From Streptomyces phaeolivaceus (lineage in GTDB: Bacteria > Actinomycetota > Actinomycetes > Streptomycetales > Streptomycetaceae), in assembly GCF_009184865.1 (NCBI RefSeq), contig NZ_CP045096.1, forward strand, positions 8,184,001-8,248,000: DNA of 64,000 nt. The letters are read 5' to 3'. Below the pieces are notes generated by a model, which saw only the letters and a program-made list of their open reading frames with translations, ran no database searches and was not told the DNA's origin. Position numbers and translations under genes: made by a program. This document shows positions 13,113-16,666 of the stretch, one piece after another (position 1 is the first letter of the stretch; the number at the start of each line of letters is the position of its first letter).

Positions 13113-14906
13113 GTGTCCGACCAGACGTCGTTGAGCTCCGCCGCCCACGTCTATCAGCGCCTCGTCCCGCAGCCGGTCCGTACCGTCGCCGCGACCACCG
13201 TCCCCGGACGCGTCCGACGCAAGGCCAAGCGGTCGCTGGCCCGTGCCCTCGGCCGCCGCGAGGCCCGGCTGCACCAGCGTGCCCTGCGGCGGGTCCGCAA
13301 GGCGGAGTTCGGGCACTCCGAGCGCCGCACCCAGGCGTACGACGGCCGGATCGGGCATGTGCACAGCGGACTGACCGTCGACCTCGCCCGCCGCCTCGAC
13401 CACAACCTGGTCACCCACGCCCTCGACGCCGCCGACATCCCCTGGTTCGCGGTGCCCGCCCTCGACGACCGGCGGATCTGTCTGGCCGTGGAGCAGCGGG
13501 ACAAGGGCGCGGTCCGCCGGGCACTACGCGCGTTGCTGGAGGAACACACCGGGTACGTGGTGTCCGTCTCGCCCGCGAACAGCGAGAGCCAGGACATCCC
13601 GGGCAGCCATGTGAAGGCGTGGAAGCACTTCGGCAAGGCCCGGGTGATCCGGCTCACCTGGCTGCGCACCGACCCCACCGAGAACCTGTGGGTCGGCGAG
13701 GACCAGGGCGTCGAGATCGAGTTCTGGACCGTCAACACCGATCTGCCGCGGGAACGGGTCGTCGGCCCGCGCCCCAACCGGGTCCAGCGGGCCGTGCCCA
13801 GCGACGCCCTCGGCATCGAGATCGGCCTCGACCGGCTCTCCGGCTATCTCGACATCGACGGCGCCATGGAGCCGACGATCACCCTGGAGAACTTCGACAT
13901 CGCCCGCCTGGAGGAGATCACCTTCCCCGTCGACGCGGTCCTGCTCCACCAGCACGCCACCCCCTGGGGCGAGGAACTGCTGCGCGCCGCCCTGCGCTCG
14001 CTGCACCAGTACGCGCCCTGGACCGACGTCGTCCACGTGGTCGCGCAGGCCCCCGTCCCCGACTGGCTGCGGGCCGACGAACGCCTCAGCATCGTGCCCG
14101 CCCGGCCGGGCGCCGAGTGGCGGCTGCACCAACTGCCCGACATCGCCGACCACTTCCTGCTGCTGCGGCCCGGCGCGCTGCTCGGCCGCCCCGTGCGGGC
14201 CTTCGACTACTTCACCCCGCACGGTGTGACCCGCCCCCGCCGCGGCCCCTGGACCGCGCAGGAGTCCTTCGCGCCCTGGACCCGCTCCGCGTACGCGGCG
14301 ACCGGCCGGGTCACCGCGCACGGCTATGCCGAGGGCCCGCAGCCGTACAGCTGCGAGACCCTGTCCCGGCTCGCGGAGTCGGGCGCCGCCGCGCTCCTGC
14401 CGCTGCCCGACGTCCAGACGGCCCCGGCGGCCACCGGCACCCACCCCATGGACGGGCTGATCCACCACTTCGGCGCCGTCGCCGGACTCGCCGACCCCTC
14501 CGGCGAGGCGACCGTCACCCTGCACACCGCCCTCCCCGGCCTCACCCACCACCTGGAGCGGCTGCTCGTCCGCAGGGACAGCCAACAGCTCCAACTCACC
14601 GGCCTGGGCGCGCCACAGGCCCTGGGGCCTGCGGCGGAAGTGGCGCCTGCCGGGCGACGCCTGGCACGCACTCTCGACGCACCGGGCGAAAGCCCAAGTA
14701 CATCCAGTACGAGGCCTTCCGCCCGGCACGCCGAGAGCACGCACCAGACGCCGCCCGGCCCGCCCTCCGGGCGGACGACGCCGCTTCCGCCGCAGGCCCC
14801 GGCCCAGGGCGGCACCGAGGCCGTCCTGCGTTTCCTGCGCCGCTACTACCCCGTGCCCAGCGTCTTCGAGCACGGGGACTCCGAGGGGTCGGACAACCAG
14901 TCGTGA
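13113..14906 (+). CDS. Stealth-like protein, copy 2, degenerate active site and inserted palindrome
   Basis: 597 residues from a GTG at 13113. The N-terminal domain and overall layout match copies 1 and 3, but the catalytic signatures are gone. CR1 VYTWVDGND is replaced by VLLHQHATPWG, the CR2 RDELRYS box is missing although the LRSLHQYAPW core remains, and CR3 LYFNDDMF is LLLRPGALLGRPV. CR4 is not recognisable. The C-terminus still ends in the family-like FLRRYYPVPSVFE. Residues ~503-566 come from a large palindromic insert (14618-14810) that keeps the frame open. A pseudoenzyme that assists copies 1 and 3 is a reasonable guess. Confidence 0.85.
   Translation: MSDQTSLSSAAHVYQRLVPQPVRTVAATTVPGRVRRKAKRSLARALGRREARLHQRALRRVRKAEFGHSERRTQAYDGRIGHVHSGLTVDLARRLDHNLVTHALDAADIPWFAVPALDDRRICLAVEQRDKGAVRRALRALLEEHTGYVVSVSPANSESQDIPGSHVKAWKHFGKARVIRLTWLRTDPTENLWVGEDQGVEIEFWTVNTDLPRERVVGPRPNRVQRAVPSDALGIEIGLDRLSGYLDIDGAMEPTITLENFDIARLEEITFPVDAVLLHQHATPWGEELLRAALRSLHQYAPWTDVVHVVAQAPVPDWLRADERLSIVPARPGAEWRLHQLPDIADHFLLLRPGALLGRPVRAFDYFTPHGVTRPRRGPWTAQESFAPWTRSAYAATGRVTAHGYAEGPQPYSCETLSRLAESGAAALLPLPDVQTAPAATGTHPMDGLIHHFGAVAGLADPSGEATVTLHTALPGLTHHLERLLVRRDSQQLQLTGLGAPQALGPAAEVAPAGRRLARTLDAPGESPSTSSTRPSARHAESTHQTPPGPPSGRTTPLPPQAPAQGGTEAVLRFLRRYYPVPSVFEHGDSEGSDNQS
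14618..14810. repeat. ~190-bp imperfect palindrome inside a coding region
   Basis: Two arms of roughly 80-100 bases meet near 14701-14706. The outer arms contain a perfect 17-bp match, GGGGCCTGCGGCGGAAG (14624-14640) against its complement at 14784-14800. The inner arms (14671-14695 against 14713-14737) match at about 20 of 25 positions. The right arm has its own small hairpin, CCCGCC/GGGCGG, near 14759-14773. The insert sits in the C-terminal part of Stealth copy 2, where copies 1 and 3 have no counterpart. Confidence 0.85.
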
Positions 14907-16666
14907 GCATGGGCAATCCCGAGGCGTCCGCCCTGGTCGGGGCGTACCGCACGCTCGTCCCGACCGGGCTGCGCCGCCGTATCGCGCGCCGCGTCCCGCC
15001 GCGGCTGCGCATGGCGCTCAAGCAGCTGCTGCGCCACCTCCAGTCGGTCACCCTGGGCTCCCGGCTGCTCCGCGCGGCCCGCGCCCGCCGCCGCTGGCCG
15101 CATCTGTTCCGCGCGGAGGAACGGCTCGCCGCGCTGGCCGGACCCGGGGCGCAGATCGCCCTCGTACGCCCCACGGTGTCGCCGCTCGGGCTGCGCGAGG
15201 CCAACCTCGAACTGGTGGTGAGCCTGCTGGAGGAGGCGGGCGTCGACTACTTCGCGATCCGCGGCAACTCCGACTTCCGTTCCTGCCTCGCGGTCGCCGA
15301 GACCGACCGGGACCGGGTGCGCGCGGCCCTCGACCGCTGCGCCGCGAGCGCACCGGTGTACGTCACGGCCTGCCGGGGCGAGACCGCCACCGGCCGTACC
15401 GCGCTGTGCGGCTCCAAGCCCGGCCGGCGGATCGCGGGGGAGGCCCGGGTGCTGCGCGTCGGCATGCTGTGGAGCGACCCGGCGGGCTCCCTGGTGCTCG
15501 GCCCGGAACACGGCTGCGACATCGAGTTCTGGCGGTCCGAGGACGGCCGCCTGGTCGCCCCGCGCCCCAACCGGGTCACCGAGGACGTCTCGCCCGCCGA
15601 GCCCCGGGTCACCGTCCCCGTCAGCCGGCTCACCGGCTTCGCCGCCCTGCACACCCGCCGCACCCGCGCGGTCCGCACCATCGCGCCCTGCGCCGACGCC
15701 CTCCCCGAGGACGTCCGCTTCCCCGTCGACGTCGTCTACACCTGGGTCGACGGCGACGACCCGGCCTGGCAGCGCCGCCGCGCCGACTTCGGGCACACCG
15801 GCTACCACACCGAGTCCGCGAACGCCGCCCGCTACATCAGCCGCGACGAACTGCGCTACTCGCTGCGCGCCCTGGAGCAGAACGCCCCCTGGGTCCGTCA
15901 CGTCTACGTCGTCACCGACCGGCAGCGCCCGGCCTGGCTCCTCGACCGCCACCCCCGCGTCACGGTCGTCGACCACTCCGAGATCTTCGCCGACCCGAGC
16001 GCCCTGCCCACCTTCAACTCCCATGCCATCGAGAGCCGGCTGCACCACATCCCCGGTCTCGCCGAGCACTTCCTCTACTTCAACGACGACATGTTCCTGG
16101 GCCGCCCCGTCACCCCGGGGGACTTCTTCCTCTCCAACGGCATGACCCGTACGTTCTTCTCGCCCTCCCAGGTCCCGAGGTGGGAGCGCACCCAGGGCGA
16201 CCGCCCGGTCGACGCGGCCGGCAAGAACAACCGCCGGCTGCTGCTGGACAACTTCGGCTCCGTCATCGTGCAGAAGGTCCGGCACGCCCCGTACGCCCTG
16301 CGCCGCAGTGTGCTGCACGAGATCGAGCGGGAGTTCGCGGACGCCCACCGGGCCACCTCGCACAGCCGGTTCCGCAGCGCGGACGACATCTCCATCCCGT
16401 CGTCGCTGTACCACTACTACGCGTACTTCACCGGCCGGGCCGTGCCCTCCGACATCAGCTTCGCCTATCTCGACCTGGCCCGCCCCGAGATCCAGCGGCG
16501 CCTGGGCATCCTGCTGGCCCGCCGCGACCGGCAGGCGTTCTGCATCAACGACACCCTCTCCGACGGCCACGACATCGACCGGCAGACGGCGATGCTCGGC
16601 CGGTTCCTCGATTCCTACTACCCCGTGCCGAGTCCCTTCGAGCGGAAGGAGCGTGAGGTCCGGTGA
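14903..16666 (+). CDS. Stealth-family sugar-phosphate transferase, copy 3
   Basis: 587 residues from a GTG at 14903 that overlaps the copy 2 stop (GTGA); an ATG at 14909 is the alternative. All Stealth regions are intact: VDVVYTWVDGDD, RDELRYSLRAL with PWVRHVYVVTD, FNSHAIESRLHHI with LYFNDDMFLGRPV, and a C-terminal CINDTLSDGHDI. It is closest to copy 1 in the catalytic domain. Like copy 2 it starts with a basic, arginine-rich stretch of about 70 residues. It is translationally coupled to the glycosyltransferase that follows. Confidence 0.93.
   Translation: MSMGNPEASALVGAYRTLVPTGLRRRIARRVPPRLRMALKQLLRHLQSVTLGSRLLRAARARRRWPHLFRAEERLAALAGPGAQIALVRPTVSPLGLREANLELVVSLLEEAGVDYFAIRGNSDFRSCLAVAETDRDRVRAALDRCAASAPVYVTACRGETATGRTALCGSKPGRRIAGEARVLRVGMLWSDPAGSLVLGPEHGCDIEFWRSEDGRLVAPRPNRVTEDVSPAEPRVTVPVSRLTGFAALHTRRTRAVRTIAPCADALPEDVRFPVDVVYTWVDGDDPAWQRRRADFGHTGYHTESANAARYISRDELRYSLRALEQNAPWVRHVYVVTDRQRPAWLLDRHPRVTVVDHSEIFADPSALPTFNSHAIESRLHHIPGLAEHFLYFNDDMFLGRPVTPGDFFLSNGMTRTFFSPSQVPRWERTQGDRPVDAAGKNNRRLLLDNFGSVIVQKVRHAPYALRRSVLHEIEREFADAHRATSHSRFRSADDISIPSSLYHYYAYFTGRAVPSDISFAYLDLARPEIQRRLGILLARRDRQAFCINDTLSDGHDIDRQTAMLGRFLDSYYPVPSPFERKEREVR

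Follow-up and report, generated by a model that had tools for sequence, protein, structure and literature searches.

The subject of this report is a palindromic element within a Stealth-like gene in a 64,000-nucleotide (nt) stretch of DNA from Streptomyces phaeolivaceus (NCBI RefSeq assembly GCF_009184865.1, contig NZ_CP045096.1, positions 8,184,001 to 8,248,000 of the forward strand), which is referred to here as the window. The host gene is the middle one of three Stealth genes in tandem. Both neighboring genes were found by Pfam to contain the regions CR1 to CR4; the middle open reading frame (ORF) contains Stealth_CR2 only. We conclude with high confidence that the element is a non-autonomous miniature inverted-repeat transposable element (MITE) of the IS5 type of insertion sequence (IS) that uses the rare tetranucleotide CTAG as its target and that landed in frame in this gene, with the addition of 59 residues to the encoded protein. 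The features of the locus are as follows.

13113 to 14906, plus strand: host gene, the middle and diverged member of a tandem array of three Stealth genes; an ORF of 597 amino acids including the insert, with a Stealth_CR2 match at E = 7.6e-12, aligned with 18 orthologues
14622 to 14802, plus strand: whole insertion with both 4-bp target copies; 177 nt net (59 codons), lacking in 18 of 18 comparable orthologues
14626 to 14798, plus strand: palindromic element (very probably a MITE), 173 bp, delimited by its arms, its fold, and the orthologue alignment
14622 to 14625, no strand: left target copy, CTGG, probably a decayed CTAG-type sequence, CTAG being the commonest duplication in the family
14799 to 14802, no strand: right target copy, CCGG, probably decayed in the same manner
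14626 to 14645, plus strand: left terminal inverted repeat, 19 of 20 bases pairing with the right arm
14779 to 14798, minus strand: right terminal inverted repeat, partner of the left repeat (19/20)
14654 to 14754, plus strand: conserved inner core, common to copies with quite different ends (positions 45-145 of the BLAST query)
14760 to 14774, plus strand: small hairpin CCGCCC-TCC-GGGCGG in the right arm, from the RNA fold and seen by eye in many copies of this genome

Over 29 nt, the arms at 14624-14652 and 14772-14800 show 86% complementarity, with a perfect match in the outer 17. The RNA fold of 14610-14820 was calculated to be -148.1 kcal/mol, compared with a mean of -102.8 kcal/mol and a standard deviation of 4.7 for shuffled sequences (z = -9.7; 0 of 200 shuffles were as good). 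These values bear out the two long arms and the perfect 17-bp outer match described in an earlier inspection of the DNA letters (the sequence-only reading), and the secondary hairpin reported there for one arm was located in the right arm at 14760-14774. This small hairpin makes the palindrome asymmetric and, hence, oriented. The same reading had placed the ends of the element at 14618 and 14810; the element itself is real, and these ends are a few bases too wide. Its estimate of about 64 codons without a stop was correct with respect to the missing stops and was too high for the net insertion of 59 codons. Relative to the consensus of its subfamily, the window copy has three changes in both arms. 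The insert peptide is without cysteine or aromatic residues and is rich in proline, serine, threonine, alanine, and glycine.

A scan of named genome contigs provided 19 relatives of the host gene (L040-L058), from which L055 was excluded because its reading frame ran off the contig. The segment is absent in all 18 of the orthologues with a readable C-terminal end, and the net difference is 177 nt. In the nearest orthologue, from Streptomyces ipomoeae 91-03 (90% identical in the best segment), ...AALG is joined directly to RGGTEAV.... Empty sites in orthologues, which the sequence-only reading had proposed as a check, were thus found in every comparable case. That reading had also held that the other Stealth copies have no residues at this site. 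This is correct for the downstream paralogue, where the alignment ends at residue 496 and restarts at residue 568, with 12 residues in the paralogue against 71 in the window protein. The upstream paralogue is less clean: one alignment ends at residue 496, another continues across the first part of the insert as far as residue 529, and the match to the tail (574-586) has an E value of 0.21.

The palindrome is widely dispersed. A BLAST search of the S. phaeolivaceus genome gave 39 matches, some of which represent one place read on the opposite strand or fragments of a single place, for 28 distinct places. When these 28 copies were folded (without shuffled controls), most were found to form long hairpins; L020 does not. 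At E ≤ 0.001, a threshold at which the weakest rows may be due to chance, related DNA was found in 132 of 150 genomes of the genus and, with a subfamily query, in 338 of 392 genomes. Matches were obtained in 25 of 72,556 plasmid records (22 from Streptomyces, 2 from Embleya, and 1 from Kitasatospora) and in none of 50,697 phage records. The view in the sequence-only reading that a mobile palindrome is dispersed in Streptomyces agrees with these copies in the S. phaeolivaceus genome, in other genomes of the genus, and on plasmids. That reading had named two outcomes as fatal to it, namely that all orthologues would carry the segment as conserved protein sequence or that no second copy would exist in any genome; the 18 empty orthologues and the 28 places in the same genome are the reverse of both. 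Four genomes (G017, G125, G046, and G038) each have at least five places with identical core scores, which suggests recent spread. The G125 copies L107 and L108 carry another kind of end, GGCAGGCAACGTTCGCCC.

The anatomy of the family was determined from 183 loci. Two of these (L062 and L064) were without a match and 7 duplicated a place already counted, which left 174 distinct loci; a further 16 had no clear ends, for a total of 158 copies. The commonest length is 173 bp (73 copies), with 171 bp in 39 and 172 bp in 10. CTAG lies on both sides of 83 of the 158 copies when it was rewarded during end-finding, and of 54 of 111 copies when the reward was weaker. A shared core is combined with several classes of ends: GGCCTGTCGTCACATTCCCGTC, GCCGTGTCCGCAAAGTCCCG, GGCCCTTCTGATGGATCTCC, GGGGTGTTTCGAGGGTCCCG, GGCGTGTTGCGAAAGTCCCG, and the window-like GGCCTGTGTCGAAAGTGGCG. 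The two arms of one copy differ at 0.85 of 20 positions, a figure that is lowered by the requirement for a 15/20 arm match in end-finding, and the arms of different copies differ at 7.1 of 20. Changes in one arm of a copy are accompanied by changes in the other. In the set of 111 copies, for which the scoring gave no reward for complementary flanks, the non-CTAG flank pairs are mostly complementary: CCAG/CTGG was found 14 times, CTGG/CCAG 5 times, and CGAG/CTCG twice, and the plain repeat CTCG/CTCG was found once. Complementarity of the non-CTAG flanks is thus far more frequent than repetition, as though perfection of the palindrome extended outward into the flanking DNA. Both the co-changing arms and the complementary flanks would be explained if one arm served as the template for the other, as in quasi-palindrome correction.

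Five transposase elements (L031-L035) with a match to DUF4096 (IS4/5 type) and with CTAG on both sides were found in the S. phaeolivaceus genome. L031 and L034, the two that were measured, are 1081 bp in length, and the transposase of L031 reads in two frames. The ends of these IS5-family elements, which begin with G(G/T)CCTGTCTGG, are near the GGCCTGTC ends of many copies of the palindrome, and both kinds of element lie between CTAG tetranucleotides. Unlike the palindrome, which encodes no transposase, L031-L035 encode one of the IS4/5 kind, and the ends diverge past the first ten or so bases. L035 appears to occupy the CTAG at the center of another palindrome, for which the inverted match could be extended to 41 bp.

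The window-like end pattern was matched in 29 of 150 genomes, and inverted pairs approximately 1.5 kb apart were found in two of them (G033 and G125); the reversed pattern was matched twice. L227 has a perfect 22-bp inverted repeat that includes the bounding CTAG; the identity is 95% for L228, and the repeats of L233 and L237 are weaker. The ORFs of L227, L228, L233, and L237 all score above the curated cutoff of the NCBIfam model transpos_IS5_3, of which they cover positions 115-258, 12-168, 113-258, and 115-257 (of 258), respectively. The end of L227 is identical to both arms of MITE copies L151 and L170 at 18 of 18 bases. L227, L228, and L233 each seem to hold one passenger gene beside the transposase, for a PNPOx-like protein, a GNAT acetyltransferase, and a P-loop (AAA_33) protein, respectively.

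An IS5-type MITE is the best reading of the palindrome, since CTAG-bounded elements that encode a transposase share ends with other copies of the family. The window copy is 173 bp long, has no transposase of its own, and has terminal repeats that match at 19 of 20 positions. The duplication of the family is like that of its putative partner, with CTAG on both sides of the 83 copies noted above and with L031, L034, L227, and others between CTAG tetranucleotides. The family is present in many dispersed copies, and relatives have empty sites. A search for a mobilizing transposase had been suggested by the sequence-only reading, and IS5-type coding elements with CTAG flanks and related ends do exist. 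We propose that a transposase made elsewhere would insert the element close to the 3′ end of the Stealth-like gene, where the CTAG-like site was CTGG, with duplication of the 4-bp target, for an addition of 173 + 4 = 177 nt. This length, together with a stop-free frame entered as CTG|G, would therefore allow the ribosome to read through the element, and the protein would gain a 59-residue insert.

Several observations weigh against this assignment. Of 18 bases, the end of L227 shares only 15 and 14 with the two arms of the window copy. None of the elements found to encode a transposase has ends identical to those of the window copy, and the subfamily end pattern was not matched in the S. phaeolivaceus genome at up to 2 mismatches. 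In each of the candidate mobilizing elements, only part of the transposase was seen: the C-terminal half in L227, L233, and L237 and the first two thirds in L228. The target copies in the window (CTGG and CCGG) are unlike each other, and neither is CTAG. Mobilization in trans by such a transposase is presumed, and the translation of the insert is predicted from gene models.

Elements of this general kind are known. In-frame palindromes have been described for the Rickettsia palindromic element (RPE), ERIC, and the Correia element in portions of two reviews (PMC2229807 and PMC10969869). Among the references of PMC2229807 is a title on protein-coding palindromes of Wolbachia. The target duplication of RPE is marked as uncertain in a table of that 2007 review, and the main text of the 2024 review of prokaryotic MITEs (PMC10969869) is without Streptomyces or Actinobacteria. 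The palindrome described here is like RPE, the 107-bp Correia element, and ERIC in being a short, mobile palindromic repeat that is found in frame within genes of unrelated function. It is unlike RPE, which was compared by description only, in its Streptomyces host, its length of 173 bp, its CTAG duplication, the IS5-kind elements with matching ends, and the flanking stops provided by the duplication. A kinship in sequence with RPE is unlikely, given the phylum and the base composition. In common with bacterial MITEs, the palindrome is short, has terminal inverted repeats, a target duplication, and many copies, and lacks a transposase; it departs from bacterial MITEs in general in that the arms are complementary over nearly the full length and one conserved core occurs with several kinds of ends. 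No report of this Streptomyces family was found among the open-license papers listed, as judged from titles and the beginnings of abstracts, which is weak evidence of absence; the kind of element is known from Rickettsia. Coding mobile palindromes are best known from Rickettsia, and a comparable process is now seen in many host genes of Streptomyces, a large genus of industrial importance. Given a plausible transposase family and clear empty sites at the single place for which orthologues were compared, it can be tested whether such inserts are translated, whether they are tolerated, and whether they give rise to new protein segments. For annotation, a peptide around ARHAESTHQTPPGPPSGRT that recurs in proteins of Streptomyces is to be regarded as a mobile insert and not as a domain.

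An insertion at this position may have inactivated the Stealth-like protein and left the gene to decay. The insert lies within, and splits, the C-terminal CR4-like region, at a spot where the orthologues vary; in the comparison with the downstream paralogue, the gap lies inside the CR4 match of the paralogue. In the Pfam analysis of the host protein together with its 18 orthologues, CR4 was recognized in 7 of the 19 proteins, with the window protein not among them. However, the frame is kept and is stop-free, and the segment downstream of the insert is intact. CR2 was found in 19 of 19 proteins and CR1 and CR3 in 0 of 19, so most of the divergence is common to orthologues without the insert. 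The middle Stealth paralogue and its 18 orthologues make up a conserved yet diverged group. On balance, decay of the gene is unlikely, and the host protein presumably still functions. AlphaFold2 modeled the window protein poorly, with a mean predicted local distance difference test (pLDDT) score of 46; the insert (507-565) is below 50, as is most of the protein.

CTAG is rare in this DNA, with 42 usable sites in 594 kb of the window and flanking DNA (sites near the ends of the pieces were excluded). The genes beside the copies were read with a codon model derived from 78 ORFs, which was correct for 186 of 193 windows of its own training ORFs. In 68 of 158 copies, the end of one or both flanking genes coincides exactly with the tetranucleotide adjoining the element, and this is true on both sides in 6. 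Of these gene ends, 73 of 74 are TAG and one is TGA, with TAG in 67 of the 158 copies. The CTAG is duplicated, and such flanking genes therefore regain their stop. The element might be retained because it acts as a regulatory RNA or as a terminator hairpin, with a functional position at gene ends and with the coding copies as byproducts. The adjacency of stop codons and the long hairpins formed by most of the 28 folded copies are consistent with such a role. Nevertheless, the element-free CTAG sites were determined to be gene stops in 11 of 42 cases (68/158 vs 11/42, p = 0.05). Because element-free CTAG sites are often stops as well, the availability of the target explains most of the adjacency. 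That the element strongly prefers stop codons to CTAG sites elsewhere was considered and was rejected, since p = 0.05 only. A search of 14400-15000 against Rfam 15 gave nothing at the gathering score, with two subthreshold microRNA matches (35.8 vs 97 bits and 22.4 vs 90 bits), and a terminator within a gene would be expected to be harmful. A primarily regulatory function appears quite improbable.

The coding frame continues on both sides of the element in 9 of the 158 copies. This share is no excess over that of the element-free CTAG sites (3 of 42). The nine copies have one orientation and one frame, with CTN|G or CCA|G as the left target, and in each the length plus 4 is divisible by 3, as continuity requires. 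Window-like ends are present in eight of the nine: 8 of 15 copies with such ends are in genes, compared with 1 of 143 of the others (p about 7e-9; 7 of 14 with the window copy excluded), in a post hoc comparison for which the 15-copy subfamily was chosen by eye after the in-gene copies were known. An apparent in-frame insertion with other ends, L102, is one of the 16 loci without clear ends. Identities were assigned to the hosts on the basis of an annotated protein that matched or by visual inspection of the sequence. Besides the Stealth-like gene, they include a ketopantoate reductase, a membrane enzyme with a GT87 domain, a polyketide synthase, and a protein resembling an O-antigen ligase; in another, an alpha/beta hydrolase, the element lies just past an apparent signal peptide. 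Strains with in-frame copies include GESEQ-35, S. umbrinus, and S. xanthii.

When the 63-residue segment of the window was used to search 5.8 billion predicted proteins, confined to hosts with lengths between about 330 and 1040 residues, 38 hosts from many families were identified at E ≤ 0.01. Four of these are insertions that are also known as DNA (P0003 and P0006 in G122, P0005 in G128, and P0028 in G103). A tryptic peptide of the insert is, for example, HAESTHQTPPGPPSGR. A six-frame control was conducted with host lengths of about 200 to 640 residues, in which the 7992 candidates that share the most words were scored and each match was assigned to its best-scoring frame. Of 65 matches, some of which are unnamed or short proteins and possibly false gene models, 28 are in the frame of the window, 19, 12, and 4 are in the other stop-free frames, and 2 are in the frames where CTAG gives a stop. 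Restriction to matches with 30 or more residues on each side leaves 55 (25, 18, 8, 3, and 1, respectively). The rule of a single frame, which had been drawn from the nine in-gene DNA copies, was therefore rejected (28 vs 35 in other stop-free frames and 2), and the frame preference is a bias and not a rule, because the control found other stop-free frames. The commonest frame encodes neither cysteine nor aromatic residues, and the rarest is the most hydrophobic (grand average of hydropathy, GRAVY, 0.16). The character of the peptide as the cause of the bias was only partly borne out, since the fraction of order-promoting residues is 0.25 in the second commonest frame (-1) and 0.15 in the third (+2). 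Most simply, an insert could survive in any frame that lacks a stop, and inserts that are disordered and free of cysteine would survive best.

All four of the CTAG-compatible frames are open in the subfamily consensus, a result that was equaled by 4% of dinucleotide shuffles and by 20% of shuffles that keep the palindrome. For 82 frame-compatible copies outside genes, which are related to one another, an average of 2.93 frames are open, compared with 1.85 in shuffled sequences. The evidence for selection for open frames was judged to be weak, as copies of frame-incompatible length are equally open (four open frames in 41 of 67 vs 46 of 91). It is conceivable, though rather doubtful, that the element has been selected to be translatable, as a transposon that spares genes by the design of its frames and seeds dozens of Streptomyces proteins with new disordered segments. 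If this were true, the element would use a target that is hardly present in high-GC genomes except at gene ends, and the palindromic, duplicated CTAG would return a TAG to each flanking gene. Within genes, the 177-nt step and the four stop-free frames would make the insert a harmless linker.

The inserted peptide could also be useful and be kept by selection on the protein. A recognizable peptide is found at one site in five GH13 proteins, which favors such a role. However, when five in-gene copies of 173 bp were compared with the subfamily consensus, 17 of the changed codons were nonsynonymous and 7 were synonymous. The expectation from all single changes is 356 nonsynonymous and 155 synonymous changes, with 8 stops. 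The ratio of 17:7 resembles 356:155 and thus looks neutral, although the copies are few and related, and purifying selection on the peptide was not seen in these five copies. In addition, the hosts belong to many families, and the peptide was without a match to any solved chain at E values up to 1. A benefit to the host protein is very improbable. The last alternative, that the segment is native, conserved protein sequence that is palindromic by chance, is in accord with its stop-free frame and can be dismissed, since the 18 comparable orthologues are without it and the same DNA occurs at dozens of unrelated places.

In the five GH13 proteins (P0004, P0012, P0017, P0018, and P0035), which come from different records, the insert is at one site, the peptide drifts, and one insert is shortened. 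Because the five proteins share the site, a single insertion seems to have been passed down in several strains. Alignment of P0004 with its best solved relative, 8yif, extends to residue 346 and resumes at residue 407, with 19 residues of 8yif between. The insert of P0004 (349-407) therefore has at most a short loop as its counterpart. For P0006, the solved relatives are too distant to locate the insert.

A second, different small palindrome was observed to be nested inside the first in L009, L011, L013, L016, L021, and L093 and in P0012, P0017, P0020, P0021, and others. This nested palindrome is also in frame in several proteins, with a segment like SPTASRAWEVPP.
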